Source of the DNA: an uncultured Pirellula sp.
GTDB lineage: Bacteria > Planctomycetota > Planctomycetia > Pirellulales > Pirellulaceae
Assembly (NCBI GenBank): GCA_903858115.1
Contig: CAIOHR010000349.1
Span: forward strand, 1-64,000
DNA length: 64,000 bases
Direction of reading: 5' to 3'
Positions within the stretch are counted from its first letter, which is position 1, and the number at the start of each line of letters is the position of its first letter. Shown piece after piece: positions 26,252 to 56,523 of the stretch. The notes under the pieces are model-generated. The model searched no databases. It was given only the letters and a program-made list of their open reading frames with translations, and had not been told where the DNA came from. A program made the translations under genes and the position numbers.

Positions 26252-27583
26252 TCAGACTTCTTCCAGACGGGTCTTGGCGTCGCCGAAGGTCTTTAGGTGT
26301 ATGTCGGTCTTGTCCATCATCGAAAGGAACAGACGGCACAGTTGACGTTCAGGTTTGCCGGTGTAGTCGAGGGCGCGGCCCCCTTTCAATTTTCCGCCGG
26401 CGCCGCCCAGCAGGATCACCGGCAGCTGGTCGTTGTTGTGCAACGCACCGGCCATCATACTCGAACAGTGCATGAGCATCGTGTTGTCCAGCAACGTGCG
26501 ATCCCCTTCCTGTATGGAGTCGAGCTTCCGTGCCAGGTAGGCTAGCTGCTCCATGAAGAACAGATTCACCCTCAGCCAATCTCGGCCGTCGCTGTGGGAG
26601 AGCAAGTGATGGATCATGTAATCAATGCCGTGTCCCGCCTGCTCGACGCTGGTGAGATTCGGGAATCGCAGCGCGCTGTGGTCGTTGTTCAGCTTGAGCG
26701 TCGCCACGCGAGTCGTGTCGGTCTGAAAGCCGAGGACGAGAATATCGATCATCAGCCGCATGTGCTCGGCGATATCCTGCGGAATCCCGTCCGCCGGGCG
26801 TTGGATGTTCGGTTTGTCGAGAGTTGGCTTCCAACCCTGCAATTCGCCACGCTTGCCAGCACTCGCGATTCGGGTCTCAATTTCGCGAACGCTGTCGAGG
26901 TACTCGTCCAGCTTCTGCTTATCTCCGGAACTGATCTTTCGCCGCAGGTCTTGGGCATCGGCGAGCACCGCATCCAGAACGCTCTGATCTTCGGGTGACG
27001 ATGCGTCCTTGAAGAGTCGGTCGAATGCCAGCGCAGGATAGAGTTCCAGAGGGGTAGGAGTCGTCGGGGAACTCCACGAGATGTGCGAACTGTAAAGCAT
27101 GCTGTAGTTCTTATGGACCGACGGGTTCGATGTCTCGCAGGCCAAGACCATACTCGGGACTTTGGTGCTGCGGCCATAGGTCTGAGCGATGACCTGATCG
27201 AAGCTGGTCCCTGAGCGAATCTCGCCGCCGCTGGCGATCGGAGCGCCCGAGAGCATGTTGCCGGTCTGCGAACTGTGAATGTTCCCTTTGCGTGCCTCCT
27301 CGTGGTACAAGCCGCGTACGAAGACCAACTTCTCTCGGAAATCGGACAGCGGCTGAAGGACCTGGCCGAGTTCCATGTTGCGGCCTTCCCCTTTGGCCCA
27401 CCATTCCTTCGAATGAAAGCCGTTGCCAGAGAAGGTCACGCACAACCGGATCGGTGCGTTGCTGGCGACCGTGGATGAGTTCGTCTCGTCGCCCCAGACG
27501 CGCAGCGACTCCATCCAGGGGAGTGCCATCGAAACGCCGAGACCGTGCAGGAATGTTCGCCGTGAGAAGTGATGCTGGTTCAT
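26252..27583 (-). CDS. DUF1552 family protein, Tat-exported (HxxSHS variant)
   Basis: 443 residues. Tat signal FSRRTFLHGLGVSMALPWME at the N-terminus. DUF1552 (PF07586) features: FSGNGFHSKEWWAKGEG, GNMLSGAPI, SWSSPTTPTPLE, DEYLDSVREIETR, QTDTTRVATLKL, LMHCSSMMAG and LLGGAGGKLKGGRALDY. The family motif HxxSHH is HLLSHS here (about bases 26596-26613), losing the last His. It lies downstream of the giant DUF1592-group gene in the same direction, 124 bases apart with a REP-1 palindrome between, the standard PVC pair. Predicted envelope protein; reaction unknown. Confidence 0.92.
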   Translation of the reverse strand: MNQHHFSRRTFLHGLGVSMALPWMESLRVWGDETNSSTVASNAPIRLCVTFSGNGFHSKEWWAKGEGRNMELGQVLQPLSDFREKLVFVRGLYHEEARKGNIHSSQTGNMLSGAPIASGGEIRSGTSFDQVIAQTYGRSTKVPSMVLACETSNPSVHKNYSMLYSSHISWSSPTTPTPLELYPALAFDRLFKDASSPEDQSVLDAVLADAQDLRRKISSGDKQKLDEYLDSVREIETRIASAGKRGELQGWKPTLDKPNIQRPADGIPQDIAEHMRLMIDILVLGFQTDTTRVATLKLNNDHSALRFPNLTSVEQAGHGIDYMIHHLLSHSDGRDWLRVNLFFMEQLAYLARKLDSIQEGDRTLLDNTMLMHCSSMMAGALHNNDQLPVILLGGAGGKLKGGRALDYTGKPERQLCRLFLSMMDKTDIHLKTFGDAKTRLEEV

Positions 27584-27626
27584 GTTGGCTCCGGAAGTGG
27601 TTGAAGAAGCTGATGTTCGTTTCTTG

Positions 27627-27695
27627 GTACGACGGACTTCCTGTCCGTCGCGATTTTGGCCCGATTGGAAACGACGGGCTGGAAGTCCGTCGTAC
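27627..27695. repeat. REP-1 palindrome pair
   Basis: Two inverted hairpins, GTACGACGGACTTCC-GTCCGTCG and its reverse complement, separated by about 20 bases. The stem is GACGGACT / AGTCCGTC around a TCC triloop (GGA in the opposite orientation). This copy has point changes. It lies between the DUF1592 and DUF1552 genes, where it could also act as an RNA hairpin. Confidence 0.9.
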
Positions 27696-27707
27696 TAGAA
27701 AATTTCC

Positions 27708-30700
27708 TTATTGCCCGGTGCCGCGAATCTCGCGGAACTGAGGACTGAGAACGATTTGCACAATCATCTGGCCGACATGGCCGCCCTCCGTTTTGGAGAG
27801 GTTGTCGATCAGCGGTTGGTCGGATAGCTGCGCGCTTCGCCCCAATGAGTAGCCGAGAAGTTTGCGGCTGAACTGCCGGAGGAAATCAGCTCGACGCTGG
27901 TTGGCCAAATAGTCCCGCAAACCGGCCAAGCCTTCCACAGCCGTGCCGTCGAAGGTCATGGACTTCGTGTCAGCCACCCGCGTTCGACCGATGGCATCGA
28001 AGCCTTCGAGCGCGAAACCGAAGGGGTCGATTCGTTTGTGGCAGCCTGCGCAGCGCGCGTCGCTGCTGTGGCGTTCGATCAACTGGCGTTCGCTGAGTCC
28101 TTCCGGGGCTTCTTCCGGCAACGTCGGAACGCCTTTGGGCGGATTGGGAATCTTGTCGCCGAGCAGTACTTCGCTGACCCACATGCCACGCAGGATGGCG
28201 CTCGTGCGCGACGCACCTGAATGTTTCGCGAGCGCCGCCGAGAAACCCAGTGCGCCTCCGCGACCATATTTCTTGATGCCTTCGACTCGCTGCCAATCGC
28301 TTCCTTCGAACGGAATGCCATAATGTTCAGCCAGCGGTTTGCTGAGGAACGTGTAATCCGCATCCAGCAGCGACAGCGCGCTGCGATCGTTCTGGAAGAG
28401 GTCAATATAGAAACGCGTCACTTCTTCCTGCATTGCTTCACGGAGCGGTTTGAAGTCAGGGAAGTGGCGTTCGCTCTTCTCATCGAGCGTTGCCACATCG
28501 CGAACATGCAGGTGCTGGCACCCAAACTCCGTGGCCAGGCGGCGAATGCGATCGTCCTTCAACATGCGTCGAGCTTGGGCAGCCAAGACATCAGGATCGC
28601 GCAGCCGTCCCGCAGCGGCGACCGCGCGCAACTCGTCATCGGGAACGGAAGACCACAGGAAGTAACTCAGCCGCGTCGCGAGTTCCCAGTCATTCACAGG
28701 GTCGGTTTGAATCGCGGGCGTTTCGCTGCGATACAGGTACGCGGGAGATGTGAGGATTCGCACGAGCATCAAGCGGGGCTCGAACTTCCTCAAACTGGCT
28801 GTCTCCGACTCGGTAAGTGGCCGTCGCCAGGCTTTTTCGGCCAAAGCGAGTATGGCGGCCTTTTGAGGTTCGATGGCCGCTGTCTTCTGTTCTTTGAACT
28901 TTGCCGCAGCAGCCATGATCGGCTCGCGCAGGGGTTCCAGGCGTTTATCTCCGTTGGGAGCGTTGGGGCCGTCCTGCGTCGAAAACTGCCAGATTTGCTC
29001 GTAGGCATCCACCAACGTGAGAGCGTCTTCGCTGACGAAATGCAGTTCGTCCCACAAGCGGTTGAGCTCGGCGATTTGATCATCGTTGAGCATCAGTCGC
29101 CGTAGTGGTTCGTCTTCGCGATGGAACAACGTCAGTGTCACGACCTCATCTACGGGAACGATCTTCGTGTAGCACAGCGCTGCGGGGAACAGAGCGCGGA
29201 AGTCATCAAAGGCCGACTCGAACCGGCGACGCGCCTCGCTACCTTCCGCCACCAGGATCGGCGCGTCAAACATCATCGGCGGTTTGCTGCTGTTCCACGC
29301 GCCAGCTTCTTTGGTTAAGGTCGCGTTCGTAGCCCGCAGGCCGGAATCAGCAGCGGGTTTGGTGGTGAGTATCTGCATTTGCACGCTGCCTTTGCTGGCT
29401 GCGGAGGGATGGAGTCGGCCCGTGGCTATCAGCTCGGCACCAGTGAGCAGCGATCCGGGAAGTCGCACTTCGATGACCGAGGGCGCTTGCACGCAGAGGC
29501 TTGTCGCGGCCACTTCACTGGCTACTTCATTGGCTACTTCATTGGCCACCTCACTGGCCACTTCACCGCTCTTGGGGTGCCTGCCAAACAGCTCTGGGTC
29601 GAGGCCATACGGAGACTCCGAGCCGACGGTCGCCTGCGCCTTCACCGCACGCCACGCATTGGCTAGGAGAGGACCATTCAGCGAGAGGAGTTGCTGACTC
29701 AGAACACGATCGCTCGGACTCGCCTGCTCGGCAGCGGCGTCCTGCTGAAGCAACTGTTGCACTTGCGCGGCGAATTGTGCTCGCTCTGCGGAGTCCTCGG
29801 CCTTCCTCCATTTCGAGAGCAGAGATGTCGAATCGACCGCCATCGTCGGCGCGTCCGTTCCTCTGGCGGGCTGACTGAGGAAGTGCCACACAGCACGGTT
29901 GCCGTGCCGATCGGCGTGTGGATTGCTGGCGAGGATGTCAGGTGAAACATCCTTGGCGAGATCCCATTCGAGCTTGCCATCGCTGAGGGTCAGATTCACC
30001 GGTGTGTGATCGCAGGCGTGATCGCCATTTCGCGGATCAATCACAAGTGCGACCACATCGCCCTGCATCACCCTCACGTCTTGCAGCGGCCCTAGCGAGA
30101 TCACGGACGAGCCCTTGCTCTCGCCGGCCGCCAGTACTTCGCGCGTCTGCCCGCGTCGCAGTTCCAATGAGTAAAGGATGCCATTACCGCAAGCCGTGTG
30201 ACCGTCCTGCACCGTGCCACTGATCCGCAGTGCGCCAGAGACCGGACTGCGCCAGGCGATCACAGATGCCAGTTTCGGTGAAGGATGCGTGGCAATACTG
30301 TTCGGCTTCATTTCGCCGGGGATGTTGACAGCGGCATCGGATGAATTCGCAAGTACGCTCAGTGCGTTATCACCAACCCAGCCCCTGATGAAGTTATAGT
30401 TGGCGACGCTCTCTGCTTTCTTGGTGATCAGCGGCTCCAGCTTCGATTCCCCGGCGCGGGCGATACCGAGATAGGTGAGCCAGCCGGCCAGCACTTCGCC
30501 ATCGACTTTGTGCTTCTGCGCCAGTACGGAGAGATCCAGCCCGTCTTTTGCGATCTCCGCTTCGTGTGCAGCGGCAAGGCAGCGTACCGCGCTTTCTATG
30601 ACGGTAGCGCGATGACGTTCCATTTGCTGCATGACCGAACGGACGTCGCGCAAGAGGAGTTCGCCACGTCCGGGCGTGATGAGACGGGCATTGTCCCAGA

Positions 30701-31823
30701 GGGCGACATCGTTGACATCGCCATCACCAGCATCGCCATCACCAGCATTACTAGTGGAGAAGTAGAGCGTGAGATCGCTTCCGTCCGGTGAGGGCTGCAA
30801 CTTCATCCGAAATTCATGCTGGGTCGCGAGCGGTGTCACCGGTTCCAGCCAAGACTTCGGGCCACCCACCTTTCCGAGATGTCCCACATTGGAGAATCGC
30901 CACAAGGCCTTTTGCCACGGCTCGATATCGGCGGCCGTGAGTTGCTTTGCTCTAAACTTTGCGCGCAACGGATCGAGCAGCGTGGATGGCTGCGCACCGG
31001 CAAGCGCGTCGCGGAGAATCCCGAGATACTTCGGACTGAGCCCCTCCGTGCTGGCTCGTCCTTGAAGTGCGTCGAGATAGCGCGCGAGCGGCAGCCGTCC
31101 GCTGCCGGTGCCGATGTCGAGCTTGATACCTTGTGCGACGGTCTGAGAACTCTCGCCGCTGGCCGTGTGCGTCGCATAAAATGCGCGGATTTTCGCTAGG
31201 GTCTCGTCGGTCCAGTCGCGCGACGATGTCTCGGCAGAGAAGTGAATGCCTGTGGGAGTCAGCACCAGGTGACCCGCCACATCCTTTGCGGCGTCGAGGT
31301 ACTTCGACAGCAGCGCCGGAGACATGACCAGCGCGGCGCCGACGTTCGTGAACCCTTCGCCCGCCGCGCCGTCAACCGGGAACTCTCGGGCCGGATCGAG
31401 CGACGGAACTCCGGTCAAATCGCGGAGCGAGTAGGTGTATTCATGATTCGACAACCGGCGCAGCACGACCGGACCCGGATCGCCCGCACTGGCCAGCGCG
31501 ATTTCGTTGAGAGTACTACGAACCCAGTCGGCCAGCAGACGCCTCGGTTCTGCCGAAAGCTGTTTGGCATCCTTGGGGGGCATTTCACCCAGAACCAGTT
31601 GTTCTTGAACCCGCTCCCAAACGTCAGCGTGCCGCTTGACCTGCTCCAAGGATAGGAATCGCTCCAAGTCGAGCTCCCCTTCCTGCTTCTCGGTAGAATG
31701 GCAAGTCACGCAATATTCACGCAGCAAGGGACGAACCGACTGCTCAAAGGCATCGGCGGAAATGCCCTTCGAAGAGGACACTGCCAGCACCGCAATCACA
31801 CTCACCGCAGAAAATATTCTCAT
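27708..31823 (-). CDS. Giant DUF1592-group cytochrome-c-like protein (PSCyt1, DUF1587, DUF1595, DUF1592, DUF1588, DUF1585)
   Basis: 1371 residues with a signal peptide (MRIFSAVSVIAVLAVSSSKG). PSCyt1 with CVTCH and LGEMPPKDAKQ (about 35-85); DUF1587 (RRLSNHEYTYSLRDLTG, about 120-185); a roughly 550-residue beta-rich insert; DUF1595 (LAEKAWRRPLTESE), DUF1592 (DWELATRLSYFLWSSVPDDEL), DUF1588 with a second heme motif (CAGCHKRIDPFGF) and DUF1585 (FSRKLLGYSLGR) in the last 400. The large insert roughly doubles the usual 700-850 length. Two in-frame minisatellites lie in the insert (29508-29567 and 30716-30745). Probably an envelope redox protein working with DUF1552; no biochemical role is established. 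Confidence 0.9.
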   Translation of the reverse strand: MRIFSAVSVIAVLAVSSSKGISADAFEQSVRPLLREYCVTCHSTEKQEGELDLERFLSLEQVKRHADVWERVQEQLVLGEMPPKDAKQLSAEPRRLLADWVRSTLNEIALASAGDPGPVVLRRLSNHEYTYSLRDLTGVPSLDPAREFPVDGAAGEGFTNVGAALVMSPALLSKYLDAAKDVAGHLVLTPTGIHFSAETSSRDWTDETLAKIRAFYATHTASGESSQTVAQGIKLDIGTGSGRLPLARYLDALQGRASTEGLSPKYLGILRDALAGAQPSTLLDPLRAKFRAKQLTAADIEPWQKALWRFSNVGHLGKVGGPKSWLEPVTPLATQHEFRMKLQPSPDGSDLTLYFSTSNAGDGDAGDGDVNDVALWDNARLITPGRGELLLRDVRSVMQQMERHRATVIESAVRCLAAAHEAEIAKDGLDLSVLAQKHKVDGEVLAGWLTYLGIARAGESKLEPLITKKAESVANYNFIRGWVGDNALSVLANSSDAAVNIPGEMKPNSIATHPSPKLASVIAWRSPVSGALRISGTVQDGHTACGNGILYSLELRRGQTREVLAAGESKGSSVISLGPLQDVRVMQGDVVALVIDPRNGDHACDHTPVNLTLSDGKLEWDLAKDVSPDILASNPHADRHGNRAVWHFLSQPARGTDAPTMAVDSTSLLSKWRKAEDSAERAQFAAQVQQLLQQDAAAEQASPSDRVLSQQLLSLNGPLLANAWRAVKAQATVGSESPYGLDPELFGRHPKSGEVASEVANEVANEVASEVAATSLCVQAPSVIEVRLPGSLLTGAELIATGRLHPSAASKGSVQMQILTTKPAADSGLRATNATLTKEAGAWNSSKPPMMFDAPILVAEGSEARRRFESAFDDFRALFPAALCYTKIVPVDEVVTLTLFHREDEPLRRLMLNDDQIAELNRLWDELHFVSEDALTLVDAYEQIWQFSTQDGPNAPNGDKRLEPLREPIMAAAAKFKEQKTAAIEPQKAAILALAEKAWRRPLTESETASLRKFEPRLMLVRILTSPAYLYRSETPAIQTDPVNDWELATRLSYFLWSSVPDDELRAVAAAGRLRDPDVLAAQARRMLKDDRIRRLATEFGCQHLHVRDVATLDEKSERHFPDFKPLREAMQEEVTRFYIDLFQNDRSALSLLDADYTFLSKPLAEHYGIPFEGSDWQRVEGIKKYGRGGALGFSAALAKHSGASRTSAILRGMWVSEVLLGDKIPNPPKGVPTLPEEAPEGLSERQLIERHSSDARCAGCHKRIDPFGFALEGFDAIGRTRVADTKSMTFDGTAVEGLAGLRDYLANQRRADFLRQFSRKLLGYSLGRSAQLSDQPLIDNLSKTEGGHVGQMIVQIVLSPQFREIRGTGQ
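29508..29567. repeat. In-frame 12-bp minisatellite (x5) in DUF1592 gene
   Basis: Five 12-base units (GGCYACYTCAYT type) lie head to tail and encode repeats of the four residues V-A-S/N-E in the linker region of the giant protein. The unit length is a multiple of three, so copy-number change would keep the frame. Confidence 0.9.
30716..30745. repeat. In-frame 15-bp tandem repeat (x2) in DUF1592 gene
   Basis: Two perfect units of CATCGCCATCACCAG encode a G-D-A-G-D-G-D-type acidic loop. It is a second small frame-preserving expansion in the same gene. Confidence 0.9.
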
Positions 31824-31891
31824 GATAGAACCACCTTCACTGGACCGACGGCCTGACGAGACCGTCCTTTAAACGTATGTCGACTCGGTTC

Positions 31892-31949
31892 GTACGACGG
31901 ACTTCCAGTCCGTCGATTTGCAGTACGACGGACTGGAAGTCCATCGTAC
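31892..31949. repeat. REP-1 palindrome pair
   Basis: Two hairpins (GACGGACT-TCC-AGTCCGTC and the inverted form) separated by 7 bases. It lies between the DUF1552 gene at 31961-33262 and the DUF1592 gene at 27708-31823. Confidence 0.93.
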
Positions 31950-31960
31950 ATCTAAATTCA

Positions 31961-33262
31961 TCAAATGCCCGTCAACCGCTCGGTCGAATCGCCGAACTGG
32001 TCGAGCTCGAGCCCACCCCACTCCATCAGGCTCAGGAACAGGCTGCACATCCGCCGGTTGGGAGCATCGAGGTAGTCGAGCACTCGGCCGCCGCGAAGTT
32101 TACCCCCTGCGCCGCCGAGCAGTACGATCGGCAACTGCTTGGCGTCGTGACTGCCGTGCAACATGCTCGAGCAGTGCATGATCGAGGTGTTGTCGAGCAA
32201 CGAGCGGTCCCCTTCCTTGACCTCTGACATTCGCTCGCAGAGGTAAGCAAGCTGTGCCATGAAGAACTGGTTGAGTGGGATGAGTTCCGGCGGCTGAGTG
32301 TGGCTCATCTGGTGGTGCTGATCCTTGGCGCCGCAGTGAGTGTGGGTCTCGGCGGAGCCATCGTTGCAATACTTGAGGGTCGCGATCCGGGTGGTGTCCG
32401 TGCGGAAAGCCAACAGCACGATGTCGTTCATGAGCTTCCAATAGTCCGGGATCTCAGCGGGAATGCCATCGGCGGGTCGCGGGCGGTCGGGGGCAGCCAG
32501 GGTTGGGGTCCATCCGCTCTCCTCGCGCTTCTGACCGGCCCGCTTGATGCGACCCTCGATCTCGTGAACGCTGCCCAGATACTCCTCGAATCGCTGTCGG
32601 TCCGAGACCGAGAGCCGCTGACGAAGCGACTGGGCATCTTCAAGCACGGCATCGACGACTCGGCGGTCGCCTCGGTTGGGCTCGGTGCGGAAGAGCTGGT
32701 CGAAGGCCAGCGCCGGACGCGTTTCCGTCCAGGTTGGCGACACTGCCGTGCTCCAAGAAATATGCGAGCTATAGAGCAATGGAAGCCCGTCCTGGAGTCC
32801 AGGAATCGGTCCTTCGCAGCCCAGCACCAGCGAAGGGATTCGCGTGCGATCGCCAATCCGCTGTGCCATCAACTGGTCGAAACTGACGCCTGTGCGGACT
32901 TCGGCCCCCGACAACGGCGAGCCGCTGAGCATGTTCCCGGTCTGCATGCAGTGGATGGCGCTCTTGTTGGCTTGCTCGTTCCACAGACCGCGCAGGAAGA
33001 CCAGCCGCTCCTTCCACGGCTCGAGCGGCTTTAGACACGGCCCGAGTTCCATGCCCGCTCCCTCCCCCTTGGCCCACCAGTGCTGGGAGTGAAAGCCCAT
33101 ACCTGTGAAAGTGACGAGCGTGCGGGTCGGCGGTGGAGTGGGGACGTTGGTTCCCAGTCGAGCAGCGAAGGACAGCGATTCGAGCCAAGGCAGAGCCATC
33201 GAAACGCCGAGCCCACGCAGCAGGGTACGCCGCGAAATGGTCGAAGCAGATTTGATGTGCAT
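31961..33262 (-). CDS. DUF1552 family protein, Tat-exported (HxxSHT variant)
   Basis: 433 residues, Tat signal ISRRTLLRGLGVSMALPWLE. Close paralogue of 26252-27583: FTGMGFHSQHWWAKGEG, GNMLSGSPL, EEYLGSVHEIEGR, RTDTTRIATLKY, MHCSSMLHG, LLGGAGGKLRGGRVLDYLD. The family motif reads HQMSHT (about 32301-32318), again lacking the last His. It lies upstream of DUF1592 gene 27708-31823 and downstream of the RAYT gene, with REP-1 palindromes on both sides. The C-terminus of about 30 residues is divergent. Same predicted role as its paralogues. Confidence 0.92.
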   Translation of the reverse strand: MHIKSASTISRRTLLRGLGVSMALPWLESLSFAARLGTNVPTPPPTRTLVTFTGMGFHSQHWWAKGEGAGMELGPCLKPLEPWKERLVFLRGLWNEQANKSAIHCMQTGNMLSGSPLSGAEVRTGVSFDQLMAQRIGDRTRIPSLVLGCEGPIPGLQDGLPLLYSSHISWSTAVSPTWTETRPALAFDQLFRTEPNRGDRRVVDAVLEDAQSLRQRLSVSDRQRFEEYLGSVHEIEGRIKRAGQKREESGWTPTLAAPDRPRPADGIPAEIPDYWKLMNDIVLLAFRTDTTRIATLKYCNDGSAETHTHCGAKDQHHQMSHTQPPELIPLNQFFMAQLAYLCERMSEVKEGDRSLLDNTSIMHCSSMLHGSHDAKQLPIVLLGGAGGKLRGGRVLDYLDAPNRRMCSLFLSLMEWGGLELDQFGDSTERLTGI

Positions 33263-33338
33263 GGGATGTATCCTTTCAGGAGGGTGTGTTGTTTCAGTCG
33301 AAGCCGAGGGTTGTCTGTCGAACGGTGGGAAGAATCTT

Positions 33339-33465
33339 GTATGACGGACTTCCAGTCCGTCGATCTTAGCGGCAGCCTTCGATTCCGTCGATCTGCGCGA
33401 CGGACTGGAAGTCCGTCGTACCTATTGTATGCCTGTCTGTACGATGGACTTCCAGTCCGTCGTAC
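33339..33465. repeat. REP-1 cluster (three hairpins) downstream of RAYT gene
   Basis: Hairpins at 33339-33362, 33398-33421 (inverted) and 33439-33465. The last is flanked by GTAC on both sides, giving a near-perfect 27-base palindrome that ends 5 bases from the RAYT stop codon. Spacers contain partial copies (CGATTCCGTCG). Confidence 0.93.
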
Positions 33466-33469
33466 GAAA

Positions 33470-34153
33470 TTAATCATCATGGAAATCCCAACCGGCAGCC
33501 TGCCAGTCTGGATGAATCCATCGTACCCATTGTGCGACCGGAATGCCTGCTTTCTTGGGATTCCGGCCGATGTATTGAACGACTTTCCAAAGATGATCTT
33601 CATCTCGAACGATGCGGTCGTAGCTCTCTTCCTCCCAAAGAGTTCCCTCTTGTTTGAGGTTCTTATTTACATGCGTTGAGACGTACTGCTTGATTCGCTG
33701 CAAACAATCTTCCAACTCAAAGCTGGACATCGGACGCATCACTGCATGGACATGGTTTGGCATCACCACGAAGCACGACGTGAAGTGGCGTTGGTTCTGA
33801 AAATGCAGCAGCGAATCTGACATCATTCTGGAGAACTTGGACTCGCGAAACACACATGAGCCATAGCCTTCATCTATCCATCGTTCGGTCTTGTTAGTGA
33901 TCTCCTGAGCGAACTGCTTCCATTCGATCTCAGTGCGTGGTTCCGGGTGTTGTTGCTCCCAGATGGCTCGCCAATGTTTGAGCGCTTGCAGATGTGTCTG
34001 CGGAATCGAATCCGCTTGTCGAAACGTGACTGCGTAAGTCGCACCCTCTTGTCTCCAATGTGGCAGGTGTCGGTGATACGTGCGGAGCGGGAGATCGGGA
34101 TGCAATCCCCGAAAATTCGGCGGCGCTGGCTTGTTGAAGGTTTCGATATTCAT
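33470..34153 (-). CDS. REP-associated tyrosine transposase (RAYT, Y1 HUH family)
   Basis: 227 residues, no signal peptide. It has the IS200-like/RAYT pattern: YHRHLPHWRQEGATYAVTF at the N-terminus, the metal-binding HUH motif in FVVMPNHVHAVM (about 137-148), a helix with the probable nucleophile Tyr (IKQYVSTHVNKNL, about 165-177), and the closing YIGRNPKKAGIP. RAYTs nick and rejoin single-stranded REP hairpins and are thought to spread them. The gene is bracketed by REP-1 hairpins on both sides (33339-33465; 34213-34339), and no IS200-type partner TnpB is present. All key residues appear intact, so it is probably active. Confidence 0.93.
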   Translation of the reverse strand: MNIETFNKPAPPNFRGLHPDLPLRTYHRHLPHWRQEGATYAVTFRQADSIPQTHLQALKHWRAIWEQQHPEPRTEIEWKQFAQEITNKTERWIDEGYGSCVFRESKFSRMMSDSLLHFQNQRHFTSCFVVMPNHVHAVMRPMSSFELEDCLQRIKQYVSTHVNKNLKQEGTLWEEESYDRIVRDEDHLWKVVQYIGRNPKKAGIPVAQWVRWIHPDWQAAGWDFHDD

Positions 34154-34212
34154 CTTGTCGTCTCTATGCCAATTGACCTTGTTGACTTGTATGACGCATT
34201 GTGTGCCTCTTT

Positions 34213-34267
34213 GTACGACGGACTTCTAGTCCGTTGATCGGCGCGACGGACTGGAAGTCCGTCATAC
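34213..34267. repeat. REP-1 palindrome pair upstream of RAYT gene
   Basis: Two inverted hairpins with 7 bases between them. The first arm carries TTCTAG in place of TTCCAG and ends TTG, a subtype shared with the neighbouring copy at 34285-34339, so these two probably arose by local duplication. Confidence 0.93.
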
Positions 34268-34284
34268 CTGTTCTATGGCTCTTT

Positions 34285-34339
34285 GTATGACGGACTTCTA
34301 GTCCGTTGATCGACGCGACGGACTGGAAGTCCGTCGTAC
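34285..34339. repeat. REP-1 palindrome pair upstream of RAYT gene
   Basis: Same subtype and spacing as 34213-34267. Together they form a tandem of two BIME-like units, 18 bases apart, ending 11 bases from the stop of the DUF1592 gene at 34351. Confidence 0.93.
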
Positions 34340-34350
34340 CTGTTGGCGCT

Positions 34351-37300
34351 TTAGGGTGGCGTGGCGGCAACGGCACTTGTCGGGCGAATGCAGCGGAACT
34401 GTTCGCTGCGAACAATCATAAGCATAACATCCGACCAGTGGCCGCCGTCGACCATGGTCTTCGTCAGTTCGTCGACCAGCTTCCGATCGGAAAGCTGCAC
34501 AGCCCGGCCCAGCGCGTAGCCGGTCAGTTTGTGAGCGAGCTCCCGCAACAAGTCCTCGCGCCGCGGGCCGGCGATGTAGTCTCGTAGGCCGGCGAAGCCA
34601 TCGATCTCGACGCCGTCACGCGTGGTTGCCCTGGCATCGCCAGGCTTCAGATCTTTGGCGGGCCGCAGTCTGCCGAGGGCGTCGAATTGTTCAAGCGTCA
34701 TGCCATAGGGATCGATGCGGACGTGGCAACCGGCACAGGCTGCATCCTGGCGATGCCGCTCGGTGATCTCGCGCACGGTAAGTCCATCGGGCGGAGTCTC
34801 CGGCAGCGGTGGCACGCCGGGCGGTACCTTCGGCAGCCGCTCGCCGACCAGCTGAACCACCCACGCGCCACGTTTGACTGGGCTCGTACGGGACGACGCT
34901 GACTGCTTGGCGAGCACCGCACCCAAGCCGAGCAACCCGCCGCGTCCATAAGTTGAAACCTTCTCGATGCGACGCCACTCCGACCCGGTCACGCCGGGGA
35001 TACCGTAGTACTGGGCGAGGACATCGTTGACGACCACTGCATCGGCGGCGATCACTTCGGCGACCGAACGGTCGTTCACGAACATATCCGCGAAGAACCG
35101 TACCGGTTCCTCGGCCAACGCGTCGCGCACGGCCGGCGTGAAATCGGGGAATTGCTTTAGGTTCCGGCCGTGGTTGGTGACGAAGTCCCGCACGCCAAGC
35201 CAACGGGCGCCGAACTCCTCTCCCATGCCCCGCATCCGGGCGTCCTTCAACATGCGTCGCAGTTGCTGCTCCATGACCGCAGGGTCGTGGAGCCTGGCGG
35301 CATAATCTCGCAATTCGTCGTCGGGGATCGAGTCCCAGAGGAGGAAACTGAGCCGCGTCGCCAATTCGTCACCCGATACCGGCTGCCAGCGCGGCCCGGT
35401 TGCCGGCTGCTCGACCCGGTAAAGGAACCACGGCGATGAGAGGACCCGGGCCAGAGCGGCACGGAACGCCGGATCGTGCTGGACGCCGTCGGCACGGTCG
35501 GCGCGGTAGGACGCGAGAATCGCCCCGCGTTCATCGTCAGCCAGCGACCGTCGCCACGAGCGCGCGGCGAAGGCAAGCAGCGCCTCAAGGTGCCTCGATT
35601 CCGCGTCGACCTTAGCCGCGAGAAAGGCTTTCTCTTCCCGTTTAATCTGTTCCTCGAACAGCTGGATGTAAAAGAACATGATCCGCGCGCCGTCGTTCGG
35701 CTTGCGGTAGTACTGTACGAGTCCCTCATACGCGATCTGGGTGGCAAGCGCTTGCTCACTTACGAACTCCAGTTCGCTCCAAAGCCGTTCGAGCTCAGTC
35801 CGGCCCGCCTCATCGAGCAGGAGCCGACGCAAAGGCTCGTCTTCGCGGCGGTACAAGAAGACGCTCCCCTGGGCGTCTCGCGGGATGATCGGTTGAAACA
35901 GGACCGCCGGGGGAAAGAGGGCGCGAAACTCCGCTGCTGGCCGAGCCCGTTCGGCGGCGACGCGCGGATGCACGATCTGCGCGGCATGCGGATCGCCCAC
36001 TTCTGCTTTAGCAACTGGCTCGGCCAATCTCCCGCCGCCTCCCGTGGCAGCGATCAGGAACGCCTGAATCGAGGCCGTTTCCGGACTGGCTTCGTCCAGG
36101 CTCACGTCAGCACGGAGAAACCGAGGCAGCGTCAGCGCCTTCTGCAAATCTGGGGGCAGTTTCCTCAGATCGAGGATGACCTCGGCACCGGCCACCGTGA
36201 CCAACGCAGACTTTGGCACCGGTCGGCCCTGCGGGTGATGGCCGAACTTCAATCCCGATGCTTGCTCGATGATCGCCCCCAGTTCTGGATGCTCCGCAAA
36301 CACCAGCGGCGGACCGTCACCACCTTCCAATCGCAGCCTATCCCAGACCACGAAGGTGTCGGGTTGGGCTGGCAACGCGACCATGCGAAAAAGTGGCTCA
36401 CGGGCGGCCCCTTGGACCCGCTCGCGAGCGACCACGCGACGCAACTCTTCCCAAGCAGGAAAGCCGTTCCCGACCGCGAGGGCCGCATTCTTGCCGTAGT
36501 TGCCTTGAAACAACTGATCCTGCATGGCCTTGATCGCCGCCAAGACCGGTGCCGGATCTGTGGTGGCCTCTCCCCACTTTTCCCGGACAAGGGCGAGCAT
36601 GTCCGGAGGCAGACCGGCGTCAGGCAGAACTGAGGACGCACTCCCCAAGTCAGCCAGAGCCTGTCCCAAAGCCGGAGAAGCAATATGCGACAGCTCGAAC
36701 AAGACCCCATCACCACCGCTCGGGTGAGCGTCGGCGACACGGCCCGAGACCGATAACTCGCCAGCAATCGGACTCGTCCAGGCGACCGCCACGGGGCGTT
36801 TCGGTCCCGGATGCACAAAGAACGATCGAGCGGGCAACTTCGTCCAAACCTGCAAATCCTCAGCGGCGGAATTCACGAACACCGAGGGTTCGGAACCGAG
36901 GCTCCACGATTTCACTTCGGACTTCCCTCCGTTGCTGTCGCGGCGTTCGGTGAGGAACACTGGAGTGGATGTCGTTTCCAAAAAGCTCCAACGGGCCTCT
37001 TGGTTGTCCGACCAGGGATTTCCCTTCAGAAGATTGGAAGTCAGATCGGAGACGCTCCATGTTCGCTGATCGCCGGCTGTTTCGTGGATCGTCCATTCGA
37101 CGAGCGTGCTGTCGGCCCCGTGATTTTCGTTCGGAAGCACAGTCAAGAGGAGCAGTTCGCCGCGCTCGACCGAGACCTTGTGCTCGAAGGGAACAGAGCC
37201 CCTCTCTGCAACCTTGGACTCCGCGAGAACACGTTTCGACGATGTCCACTCAGACTCGATAGCCTTCTTCGCCGATTGGAGAGTCGTCTGCCTCAGCTGC

Positions 37301-38319
37301 TTCTCAGCTTCAATTCGGGCCGCCTTCTCGGACCACTGCTTCATCCGAGCATCAACTTCGCCTTGCGTACGACGGACTTCCAGTCCGTCGCTCCCAACGT
37401 ACGACGGACTAGAAGTCGGTCGTACAGAGCCGCTCAGCCCGGCCCACAGTGCCGCCAGATAGGTAGCGTTGAGCTTTTCCTCGGCGGCCACCGCAGCGAT
37501 GTCGGCGGCCCCGCCACGGGTGAGCCTGTCGCGGTGCTTCAAGGTCGCCGCCAGATGCGCTGCTAACGGCGGCTCTCCGTTGGGCCCGGCATAGCGAGCG
37601 TGGAAGCTGCGAAGCGGCTTGAGAGCCTCCTCCGTCCAATACGGGCGTTCGGTGGACGGGGAAAAGCGAAAACCGCCGGGCAGTAGCACGACCCGCGCGG
37701 CGACGTCGCGAGCAGCGTGGTGGTAACGTTCGACCAGTTCGGGCGTCACCGGCATCGCGTCCCCAACGTTGGCAAAGCCCTCGCCGCCGACGCTGTCGAT
37801 AGGAAACTCGCGGGCCTGGGTTGGCCGCATGTCCACGCCGGTCAGATCGCGGACAGCGTTGTCGTACTCCGTATTGCTCAGCCGACGCAGCGTTACCGGC
37901 CCAGGATCACCGGCCCGCGCAGCCGCTTCCGCATCGAGGGCCGCATGGATCCAGCCCAGCAGTTGTTCCCTCTCGGCCTCGCTCGGCTGCGGAGCGTCCT
38001 TCGGCGGCATGTCGCCCAGTCGCAAACGGTCGGCGACATCGCTGAGCATCTGGGGCTTGCCGAGTATCGCCTGGGCAGAGCCAAAGCTCGTGAGATCGAG
38101 CTCGTTCTCCTCGGGAATCTTCCCATGGCAATTCCCGCAGGATCTGACGAGCAGCGGCTGGATCTGTGTGTCATAGGTTTGCGAGAGGTCATCTGCACCA
38201 TCAGCAGACGCTGCATCGAGCGTGAGAAAGGCAATTAGCAGTATGGCGCAAGCCGTCCGGTTTCGCCGTGCAGCACCGGTCGGCTTGCGTTGCACCGCTA
38301 CTTGTGTAAGGCATCGCAT
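34351..38319 (-). CDS. Giant DUF1592-group cytochrome-c-like protein with in-frame REP-1 insertion
   Basis: 1322 residues; signal region RTACAILLIAFLTLDAASA. Order as in 27708-31823: PSCyt1 (CGNCHGKIPE, LGDMPPKDAPQ), DUF1587 (RRLSNTEYDNAVRDLTG), a long central insert, DUF1595 (FAARSWRRSLADDERG), DUF1592 (DELATRLSFLLWDSIPDDEL), DUF1588 (CAGCHVRIDPYGM) and DUF1585 (LAHKLTGYALGR). A REP-1 element at 37367-37425 is translated in frame within the insert. The start overlaps the stop of the GntR regulator by one base (TGATG), so regulator and cytochrome-like gene are probably cotranscribed. Paired with DUF1552 gene 31961, with the RAYT gene inserted between. Confidence 0.9.
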   Translation of the reverse strand: MRCLTQVAVQRKPTGAARRNRTACAILLIAFLTLDAASADGADDLSQTYDTQIQPLLVRSCGNCHGKIPEENELDLTSFGSAQAILGKPQMLSDVADRLRLGDMPPKDAPQPSEAEREQLLGWIHAALDAEAAARAGDPGPVTLRRLSNTEYDNAVRDLTGVDMRPTQAREFPIDSVGGEGFANVGDAMPVTPELVERYHHAARDVAARVVLLPGGFRFSPSTERPYWTEEALKPLRSFHARYAGPNGEPPLAAHLAATLKHRDRLTRGGAADIAAVAAEEKLNATYLAALWAGLSGSVRPTSSPSYVGSDGLEVRRTQGEVDARMKQWSEKAARIEAEKQLRQTTLQSAKKAIESEWTSSKRVLAESKVAERGSVPFEHKVSVERGELLLLTVLPNENHGADSTLVEWTIHETAGDQRTWSVSDLTSNLLKGNPWSDNQEARWSFLETTSTPVFLTERRDSNGGKSEVKSWSLGSEPSVFVNSAAEDLQVWTKLPARSFFVHPGPKRPVAVAWTSPIAGELSVSGRVADAHPSGGDGVLFELSHIASPALGQALADLGSASSVLPDAGLPPDMLALVREKWGEATTDPAPVLAAIKAMQDQLFQGNYGKNAALAVGNGFPAWEELRRVVARERVQGAAREPLFRMVALPAQPDTFVVWDRLRLEGGDGPPLVFAEHPELGAIIEQASGLKFGHHPQGRPVPKSALVTVAGAEVILDLRKLPPDLQKALTLPRFLRADVSLDEASPETASIQAFLIAATGGGGRLAEPVAKAEVGDPHAAQIVHPRVAAERARPAAEFRALFPPAVLFQPIIPRDAQGSVFLYRREDEPLRRLLLDEAGRTELERLWSELEFVSEQALATQIAYEGLVQYYRKPNDGARIMFFYIQLFEEQIKREEKAFLAAKVDAESRHLEALLAFAARSWRRSLADDERGAILASYRADRADGVQHDPAFRAALARVLSSPWFLYRVEQPATGPRWQPVSGDELATRLSFLLWDSIPDDELRDYAARLHDPAVMEQQLRRMLKDARMRGMGEEFGARWLGVRDFVTNHGRNLKQFPDFTPAVRDALAEEPVRFFADMFVNDRSVAEVIAADAVVVNDVLAQYYGIPGVTGSEWRRIEKVSTYGRGGLLGLGAVLAKQSASSRTSPVKRGAWVVQLVGERLPKVPPGVPPLPETPPDGLTVREITERHRQDAACAGCHVRIDPYGMTLEQFDALGRLRPAKDLKPGDARATTRDGVEIDGFAGLRDYIAGPRREDLLRELAHKLTGYALGRAVQLSDRKLVDELTKTMVDGGHWSDVMLMIVRSEQFRCIRPTSAVAATPP
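37367..37425. repeat. REP-1 element inside coding sequence
   Basis: 59 bases with two inverted hairpins, as in the intergenic copies (one stem carries GTCGGTCG). In the DUF1592 reading frame it is translated without stop as a segment containing [12 protein letters not shown]. The 27708 paralogue has no REP-1 sequence in its own insert, so this is an insertion, not a conserved part. Confidence 0.93.
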
Positions 38320-56468: not shown

Positions 56469-56523
56469 GTACGACGGACTTCCAGTCCGTCGAGAATTTC
56501 GATGGACTGGAAGTCCGTCGTAC
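56469..56523. repeat. REP-1 palindrome pair
   Basis: Two inverted hairpins (GACGGACT-TCC-AGTCCGTC; second arm starts CGATGGACT) with 7 bases between. This is the most distant copy, 22 kb from the RAYT gene. Confidence 0.93.

Follow-up and report, generated by a model that had tools for sequence, protein, structure and literature searches.

A RAYT gene flanked by its own GTAC-tagged REP hairpins in a planctomycete genome

The DNA analysed here, which we call the window, is a 64,000-nucleotide part of contig C349 (111,648 bases) in the genome of an uncultured Pirellula sp. (7.89 Mb, 445 contigs), and it carries a RAYT gene flanked by REP hairpins, four upstream and three downstream (Table 1). 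In what follows, G-codes denote genomes, with G000 the genome of the window, and L-codes denote loci. We searched both strands of the window with GACGGACTTCCAGTCCGTC, allowing up to three mismatches and using 100 dinucleotide shuffles of the window as the control. The search returned 22 strand matches at 15 distinct places (27631/27673, 31896/31927, 33343/33399/33443, 34217/34245/34289/34317, 37371/37403, and 56473/56501), and the shuffles gave a mean of 0.05 matches, with none of the 100 reaching 22. The initial annotation had listed 15 hairpins, and all 15 are there, far above chance. It had also counted five other loci; their positions are right, but the one at 34213/34285 flanks the RAYT gene on its other side, which leaves four places apart from the gene. 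In the window pairs, the tags described below face outwards. The pair at 37371/37403 is intragenic, in frame inside a PSD gene, and the initial annotation had noted neither this nor the 5' GTAC tag. The region 26252-38319 holds two adjacent DUF1552/PSD gene pairs, both on the minus strand; three of the gaps and one of the genes contain REP pairs. An Rfam search of 33300-34400 only gave 12 matches to microRNA-precursor models, all far below the gathering score, which we took as chance matches to long hairpins.

Table 1. Coordinates of the RAYT gene, REP hairpins, and host gene in the window
Feature	Position	Strand	Remark
REP pair, head-to-head	27627-27695		between DUF1552 gene 26252-27583 and PSD gene 27708-31823
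REP pair, head-to-head	31892-31949		between PSD gene 27708-31823 and DUF1552 gene 31961-33262
REP unit, tag GTAT	33339-33362	+	downstream of RAYT
REP unit, tag GTAC	33398-33421	-	head-to-head partner of 33339-33362
REP unit, tag GTAC	33439-33462	+	adjoins RAYT stop
RAYT (TnpAREP-like Y1/HUH) gene, 227 aa	33470-34153	-	Pfam PF01797; profile match to 4er8
REP unit, tag GTAC	34213-34236	+	upstream of RAYT
REP unit, tag GTAT	34244-34267	-	upstream of RAYT
REP unit, tag GTAT	34285-34308	+	upstream of RAYT
REP unit, tag GTAC	34316-34339	-	upstream of RAYT
PSD gene (DUF1587/1595/1592/1588/1585 domains)	34351-38319	-	hosts in-frame REP pair
REP pair, in frame within PSD gene (codons 299-318)	37367-37425		absent in G162 and G105
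REP pair, head-to-head	56469-56523		absent at aligned place in G211 and G136

The RAYT protein matches the Pfam Y1_Tnp model at 28.0 bits, which passes the cut-off of 23, and its best and sole NCBIfam match is REP_Tyr_transpos at 69.3 bits, under the cut-off of 80. When 20 RAYT relatives were compared with the models at E 0.001, REP_Tyr_transpos matched all 20 and the IS200 model matched three. The key residues are NHVH at 133-136, W173-E174, D179, R180, R183, and Y194, and H134, H136, Y194, and the W residue are invariant in all 20 RAYTs. A PDB search with a profile of the 20 RAYTs put E. coli TnpAREP (4er8) at the top of six sequences (E 1.7e-5), with IS200-type transposases as weaker matches; the same search with the single RAYT sequence returned no TnpAREP, only galectin chance matches. 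In the profile alignment with 4er8, W173, E174, D179, R180, and R183 fall opposite W, Q, E, H, and R of the E. coli protein, and Y194 falls opposite the tyrosine of YI..NP. These E. coli residues are numbered W94, Q95, E100, H101, and R104 in PMC6006769, and PMC6006769 and PMC8266576 describe them as guide contacts. The reading frame is open and 93% identical in relatives. Eight Y1-type matches occur in the genome, seven of them above the Pfam cut-off, and the next RAYT match among those listed for the genome is 32% identical. The genes scanned around RAYT are PSD, DUF1552, and GntR, and tnpB is absent among these neighbours. PADLOC gave no match, and a structure prediction of the RAYT and five relatives (mean pLDDT 41.7) was set aside.

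The hairpins follow the form 5'-GTAC-GACGGACT-TYC-AGTCCGTC-G. A genome search allowing up to two mismatches found 27 copies, 11 of them exact, with none in the reversed control, and this whole-genome count, a check that the initial annotation had asked for, places the palindromes beyond the window. When the 27 copies are oriented by their TTCC loop, all have a tag at the 5' foot, GTAC in 24 and GTAT in three. Outside the tag no position exceeds 0.32 bits, which gives a sharp outer edge, and on the 3' side a single G is conserved in 26 copies. Distinct copies pooled over the loci of many genomes (n=150) have GTAC in 128 cases and GTAT in seven. Because the tag stands at one foot with a sharp edge in 27 of 27 copies, we conclude that the palindrome is a polarised unit. 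None of the 27 has the canonical REP tag, GTAG or GTGG, at this foot. The tag's C lies opposite the 3' G in 26 copies and GTA is the invariant part, and a tag of GTA with one extra base pair describes the same facts equally well as a tag of GTAC. CGTC lies inside the paired stem, and the unpaired tag is GTA followed by C or T. Among 118 different 5' flanks, we found no cut-site dinucleotide at a fixed distance.

Two related hairpins were also seen. A relative with a 4-nt loop, GTAC-GACGGACT-TCCA/TCCT-AGTCCGTC, is dispersed and has longer conserved flanks (L194-L201 and L203, in G211, G154, G195, and G203), and in G211 such a relative of the REP pair occurs at many places. The variant stem AACGGACTTCCAGTCCGTG has three copies in L001 (at 1598, 1905, and 2084; C60:147381-147982), which share a longer flank and are distant from any RAYT close to the window RAYT.

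Seven of the 27 hairpins lie at the RAYT gene and 20 elsewhere in the genome; a looser 15-mer search gave 45 matches against 15 in its reversed control and was left out of the counts. The RAYT contig holds 16 of the 27 copies. Without the flanks of RAYT itself, five of 11 hand-merged places are on this contig (binomial 2.4e-7), and in other genomes the RAYT contig holds 16/18 places in G104, 21/34 in G211, and 8/40 in G177, so that clustering near RAYT is seen in three of the four genomes. Local copying, host-gene duplication, and whole-locus transfer all fit this distribution.

We then compared RAYTs and hairpins over 199 genomes of the same family, 130 of which have a RAYT match. Among the 30 best RAYT loci, one per genome, out of these 130, 28 have their own hairpin in at least two copies, and its foot is GTA or GTG in all 28. 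The expectation that RAYT homologues carry their own stems thus held at 28 loci and failed at L085 and L086, which have no hairpin family at the RAYT locus. The distance between RAYT proteins correlates with that between stems (Mantel r 0.672, n=33), also after near-duplicates were removed (r 0.588, n=29), and in both cases none of 9,999 permutations was as high; shared descent explains part of this co-variation. The tree and the Mantel test use 33 of 46 loci and leave out L032 (same gene as L066), L074 (in-frame stop), L085 and L086 (hairpin family lacking), L207, L215, and L035 (few hairpins or ambiguous foot), and L028-L031, L033, and L034 (other or partial Y1 matches). The 8-nt stem arms for the Mantel test and tag tables were taken by eye, and the tag of L070, for which the tag table counted zero copies, is the locus consensus.

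Stems are also specific to particular genomes. The L072/L075 stem occurs in eight of 19 genomes, with 343 copies in G179, 312 in G148, 66 in G008, 46 in G106, 19 in G195, and single copies in G146, G104, and G174. A RAYT bearing this stem is present in G179, G106, and G008 (in a 2-mismatch form); among the sampled loci G195 and G148 have the stem without a matching RAYT, and the RAYT locus sampled in G148 carries another stem. The L084 stem is found in two of the 19, its own genome G053 (22) and G211 (1), and both stems are absent from G000 and G177. G211 has three RAYTs, 94, 78, and 44% identical to the window RAYT, whose hairpin sets differ, and at the 78% RAYT a new stem is paired with one copy of the window stem. 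The Y1 domain, the 28 of 30 loci, the Mantel test, the stem specificity, and the 4er8 match give good support to the claim that this RAYT has cognate REPs of its own. At L073 (787-1423), two unrelated hairpins alternate along a tandem array of ~100-base units beside a RAYT.

The window stem itself is present in the four of 199 genomes whose RAYT is at least 76% identical (27 copies in G000, 40 in G177, 18 in G104, and 190 in G008), and it has 0-1 copies in all eight genomes whose best RAYT is 59-65% identical (G024, G013, G179, G148, G065, G106, G130, and G174). Some match to it occurs in 62 of the 199 genomes, with at most two per genome in the reversed control. At least 10 palindromes are found in 4/4 genomes with such a close RAYT and in 10/195 others (Fisher 1.6e-5, kinship ignored); counting a RAYT fragment at a contig end in G137, the figures are 5/5 and 9/194 (Fisher 8e-7, kinship again ignored). 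Palindromes equally common without a RAYT would have spoken against the initial annotation, and the comparison goes mostly in its favour. The nine palindrome-rich genomes without a close RAYT (G197 267, G123 75, G063 52, G101 37, G162 23, G040 22, G015 14, G112 12, and G057 11) count against a strict link between RAYT and palindrome. In G123 the contig carrying the PSD gene stops ~2.5 kb short of the RAYT place, so the RAYT gene may be unassembled there. The G197 assembly, 85% complete, is split into ~1,210 contigs, and REPs stand at the ends of several of them. In G040, which is 99% complete, a RAYT match was not found, and the assembly of G162 covers the RAYT place, which shows a REP pair and no RAYT.

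RAYT and its REPs lie between DUF1552 and PSD genes in G000, G211, G177, and G104, the last from another genus. The single REP pair at this place in G162 has the same outer ends as the RAYT locus, and G105 and G136 have neither RAYT nor REP there and no palindrome anywhere in either genome. G136 is 86-91% like the window at the RAYT place and 68-69% at the 56-kb place; given this uneven likeness, exchange of the locus is possible, and the change may have gone in either direction. The pair at 56469 is missing in G211, which bears a RAYT, as well as in G136, with the surrounding spacer diverged, and the upstream array of four hairpins has 13 in G211. The initial annotation called the RAYT apparently active, which is supported in part only. 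The differences in array length, the REP site missing in a RAYT-bearing relative, and the in-frame expansion described next speak for this indirectly; only 27 copies, their clustering near RAYT in three of four genomes, and no strain-level new insertion speak against it.

The pair inside the PSD gene is present with the frame open in G000, G211, G177, and G104, and in the two genomes that lack it the gene is 17 codons shorter. In G123 it is tandemly expanded by 33-base units (11 codons), and the frame is still open. Further in-gene copies lie at C349:65581 and C146:20733, each within an open frame of 829 codons that encodes a paralogous PSD protein, and these are probably one insertion that predates the gene duplication. 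In both of them (loci L019 and L002, ~1451-1520 in each) the REP pair splits the DUF1592 profile into two stretches. L003 and L011 share a 148-base repeat (1389-1536, 89% alike) at distant places, with one REP and short pieces resembling L019 in each; it is perhaps a larger composite repeat.

Next, we consider the tag. GTAC is the main tag of 10 of the 33 RAYTs, all in one supported clade of 14 (97/96), the rest of which includes three with GTAG and one mixed, and four tag changes are needed on the tree. At the position of Q95, Glu goes with mainly C as the fourth tag base in 8/8 RAYTs, several of them close orthologues, and Gln goes with G in 11/12. Ala is found with C, G, and mixed tags, Thr with C and G, Met with G, T, T, and mixed, and Ser, Tyr, and two His with G. 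Gln against the other residues gives a Fisher value of 0.003 with kinship ignored. L076 (GTAG) and L077 (GTAC) have near-identical RAYTs, both with Thr; since the same residue goes with different tags here, and Ala and Thr go either way, residue 95 alone does not fix the tag. L215, which has Gln and was excluded from the tree, has a foot readable as GTTG or GTAC, so that GTAC may also occur beyond this clade.

In the guide model described in PMC8266576, bases 3-4 and 2-4 of the tag choose the cut dinucleotide, from which GTAC in place of GTAG is predicted to direct cutting at GT or GA and not at CT or CA. That paper reports that E. coli tolerates no change of the GTAG tag, that a GTAC mutant is uncut in Stenotrophomonas, and that in Marinomonas a GTAC mutant shifts the cut to GA/GT with varying efficiency. 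We tentatively propose, as a possible history and not yet a probable one, that the REP guide of a planctomycete RAYT clade was naturally recoded, GTAC taking the place of GTAG, that Gln95-to-Glu belonged to this change in one branch, that cutting consequently falls at GT/GA, and that the tag switched more than once within the clade (L072/L073, L076/L077, and L208), whose members would form a natural series for studying the guide code in single strands.

The locus resembles the proteobacterial REPtrons of E. coli, S. maltophilia, and Marinomonas, as PMC8266576 presents them, in its Y1/HUH protein, a gene flanked by its REPs, the four-base tag at the 5' foot, REP pairs placed head-to-head, and stems that, like those of group 3, are perfect with a 3-nt loop; it differs in GTAC/GTAT in place of GTAG, in Glu at the Q95 position, and in its planctomycete host. 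Subclass 2.7 of TnpAY1, by its description in PMC6006769, is alike in ~213 aa, NHVH, Asp/Arg/Arg at 100/101/104, a longer N-terminus, no added C-terminal domain, and long regular REPs. The motifs given there are [ND]HVH, WQ, and YI[LR][NQ]NP, whereas the RAYT here has WE and YIGRNP, with a tag of GTAC and not GT[AG]G. The published REP tag is GTAG or GTGG (PMC3733652), and such systems had been called poorly described in PVC bacteria, which is fair, but GTAG REPs of R. baltica and O. terrae are already in print in that paper. The Planctomycetes/Verrucomicrobia REPs are likewise tagged PVC palindromes with head-to-head dimers and intragenic copies; in the text description, their tags are GTAG/GTGG and bases 2-3 vary, whereas here base 4 does. 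Rickettsial palindromic elements and CGTC REPs (PMC3733652) also lie in frame within protein genes, but are described there as having no known dedicated transposase, in contrast to the cognate RAYT here, and the CGTC super-family has CGTC unpaired at one end and no transposase, whereas here CGTC is in the paired stem. Our searches of open-licence PMC papers, among them PMC3733652, PMC6006769, and PMC8266576, turned up no natural GTAC-tagged REPs; subscription papers and sequences in figures lie outside that search, and the natural GTAC tag is provisionally new.

The explanation that we favour, with good confidence, is a REPtron in which one RAYT recognises its own REP hairpins and has contributed to their copying, for the most part in head-to-head pairs. 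We observed the gene family, its cognate hairpins with their polarised tag, the co-variation, and the REP-free orthologous places, and we infer that the window RAYT binds, cuts, and copies REPs. It would recognise the REP as single-stranded DNA with the tag acting as a guide, and pairs of REPs would be copied together to sites close by and to a few far away, some in frame within genes. The nine palindrome-rich genomes without a close RAYT, the L072/L075 stem in G195 and G148 without a matching RAYT among the sampled loci, and the negative search for a fixed cut-site dinucleotide in 118 flanks weigh against it. The low copy number, with 16 of 27 copies on one contig, goes against such copying and suits a different account that we regard as rather unlikely, in which the REPs spread in the past, the RAYT is now silent or has a host task, and inheritance, transfer of the locus, and duplication of genes maintain the copies in place of present transposition. 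Clustering on the RAYT contig in G104 and G211 agrees with such a relic, yet G177 has only 8/40 there; the two intragenic copies in paralogous genes and the REPs retained in G162 without a RAYT also agree with it. An open frame 93% identical in relatives, full conservation of the HUH, W, and Y residues in 20/20, 11 exact copies, an upstream array of four hairpins in G000 against 13 in G211, and the 56469 pair missing in RAYT-bearing G211 all argue against a relic.

It is very improbable that the palindromes are independent repeats, such as terminators or RNA hairpins, among which the RAYT landed like some REP-targeting insertion sequences: some genomes do have palindromes without a close RAYT, and window pairs often lie between same-strand genes, but the hairpins co-vary with RAYT, a plain terminator needs no one-sided tag, and the RAYTs of one genome have distinct sets, though one G211 set includes the window stem. 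Slightly less credible still is an IS200/IS605 insertion sequence with the hairpins as chance ends. Membership of the same Y1 family, the IS200-type transposases among the weaker PDB matches, and the outer ends at the G162 place, which are those of a plain REP pair, are compatible with it; the single genome copy (next listed match 32% identical), the motif YIGRNP in place of the Y---Q given in PMC6006769, the 3/20 against 20/20 model matches, and the scanned neighbourhood without tnpB are not.

A REPtron is a known kind of system, and what is provisionally new is the GTAC/GTAT tag in a planctomycete RAYT lineage. A natural GTAC clade, together with near-identical RAYTs with different tags such as L076/L077, would open the guide code to comparative tests, and the in-frame REP pairs, one of which has grown by 11-codon units, would be a route for adding peptide to proteins.
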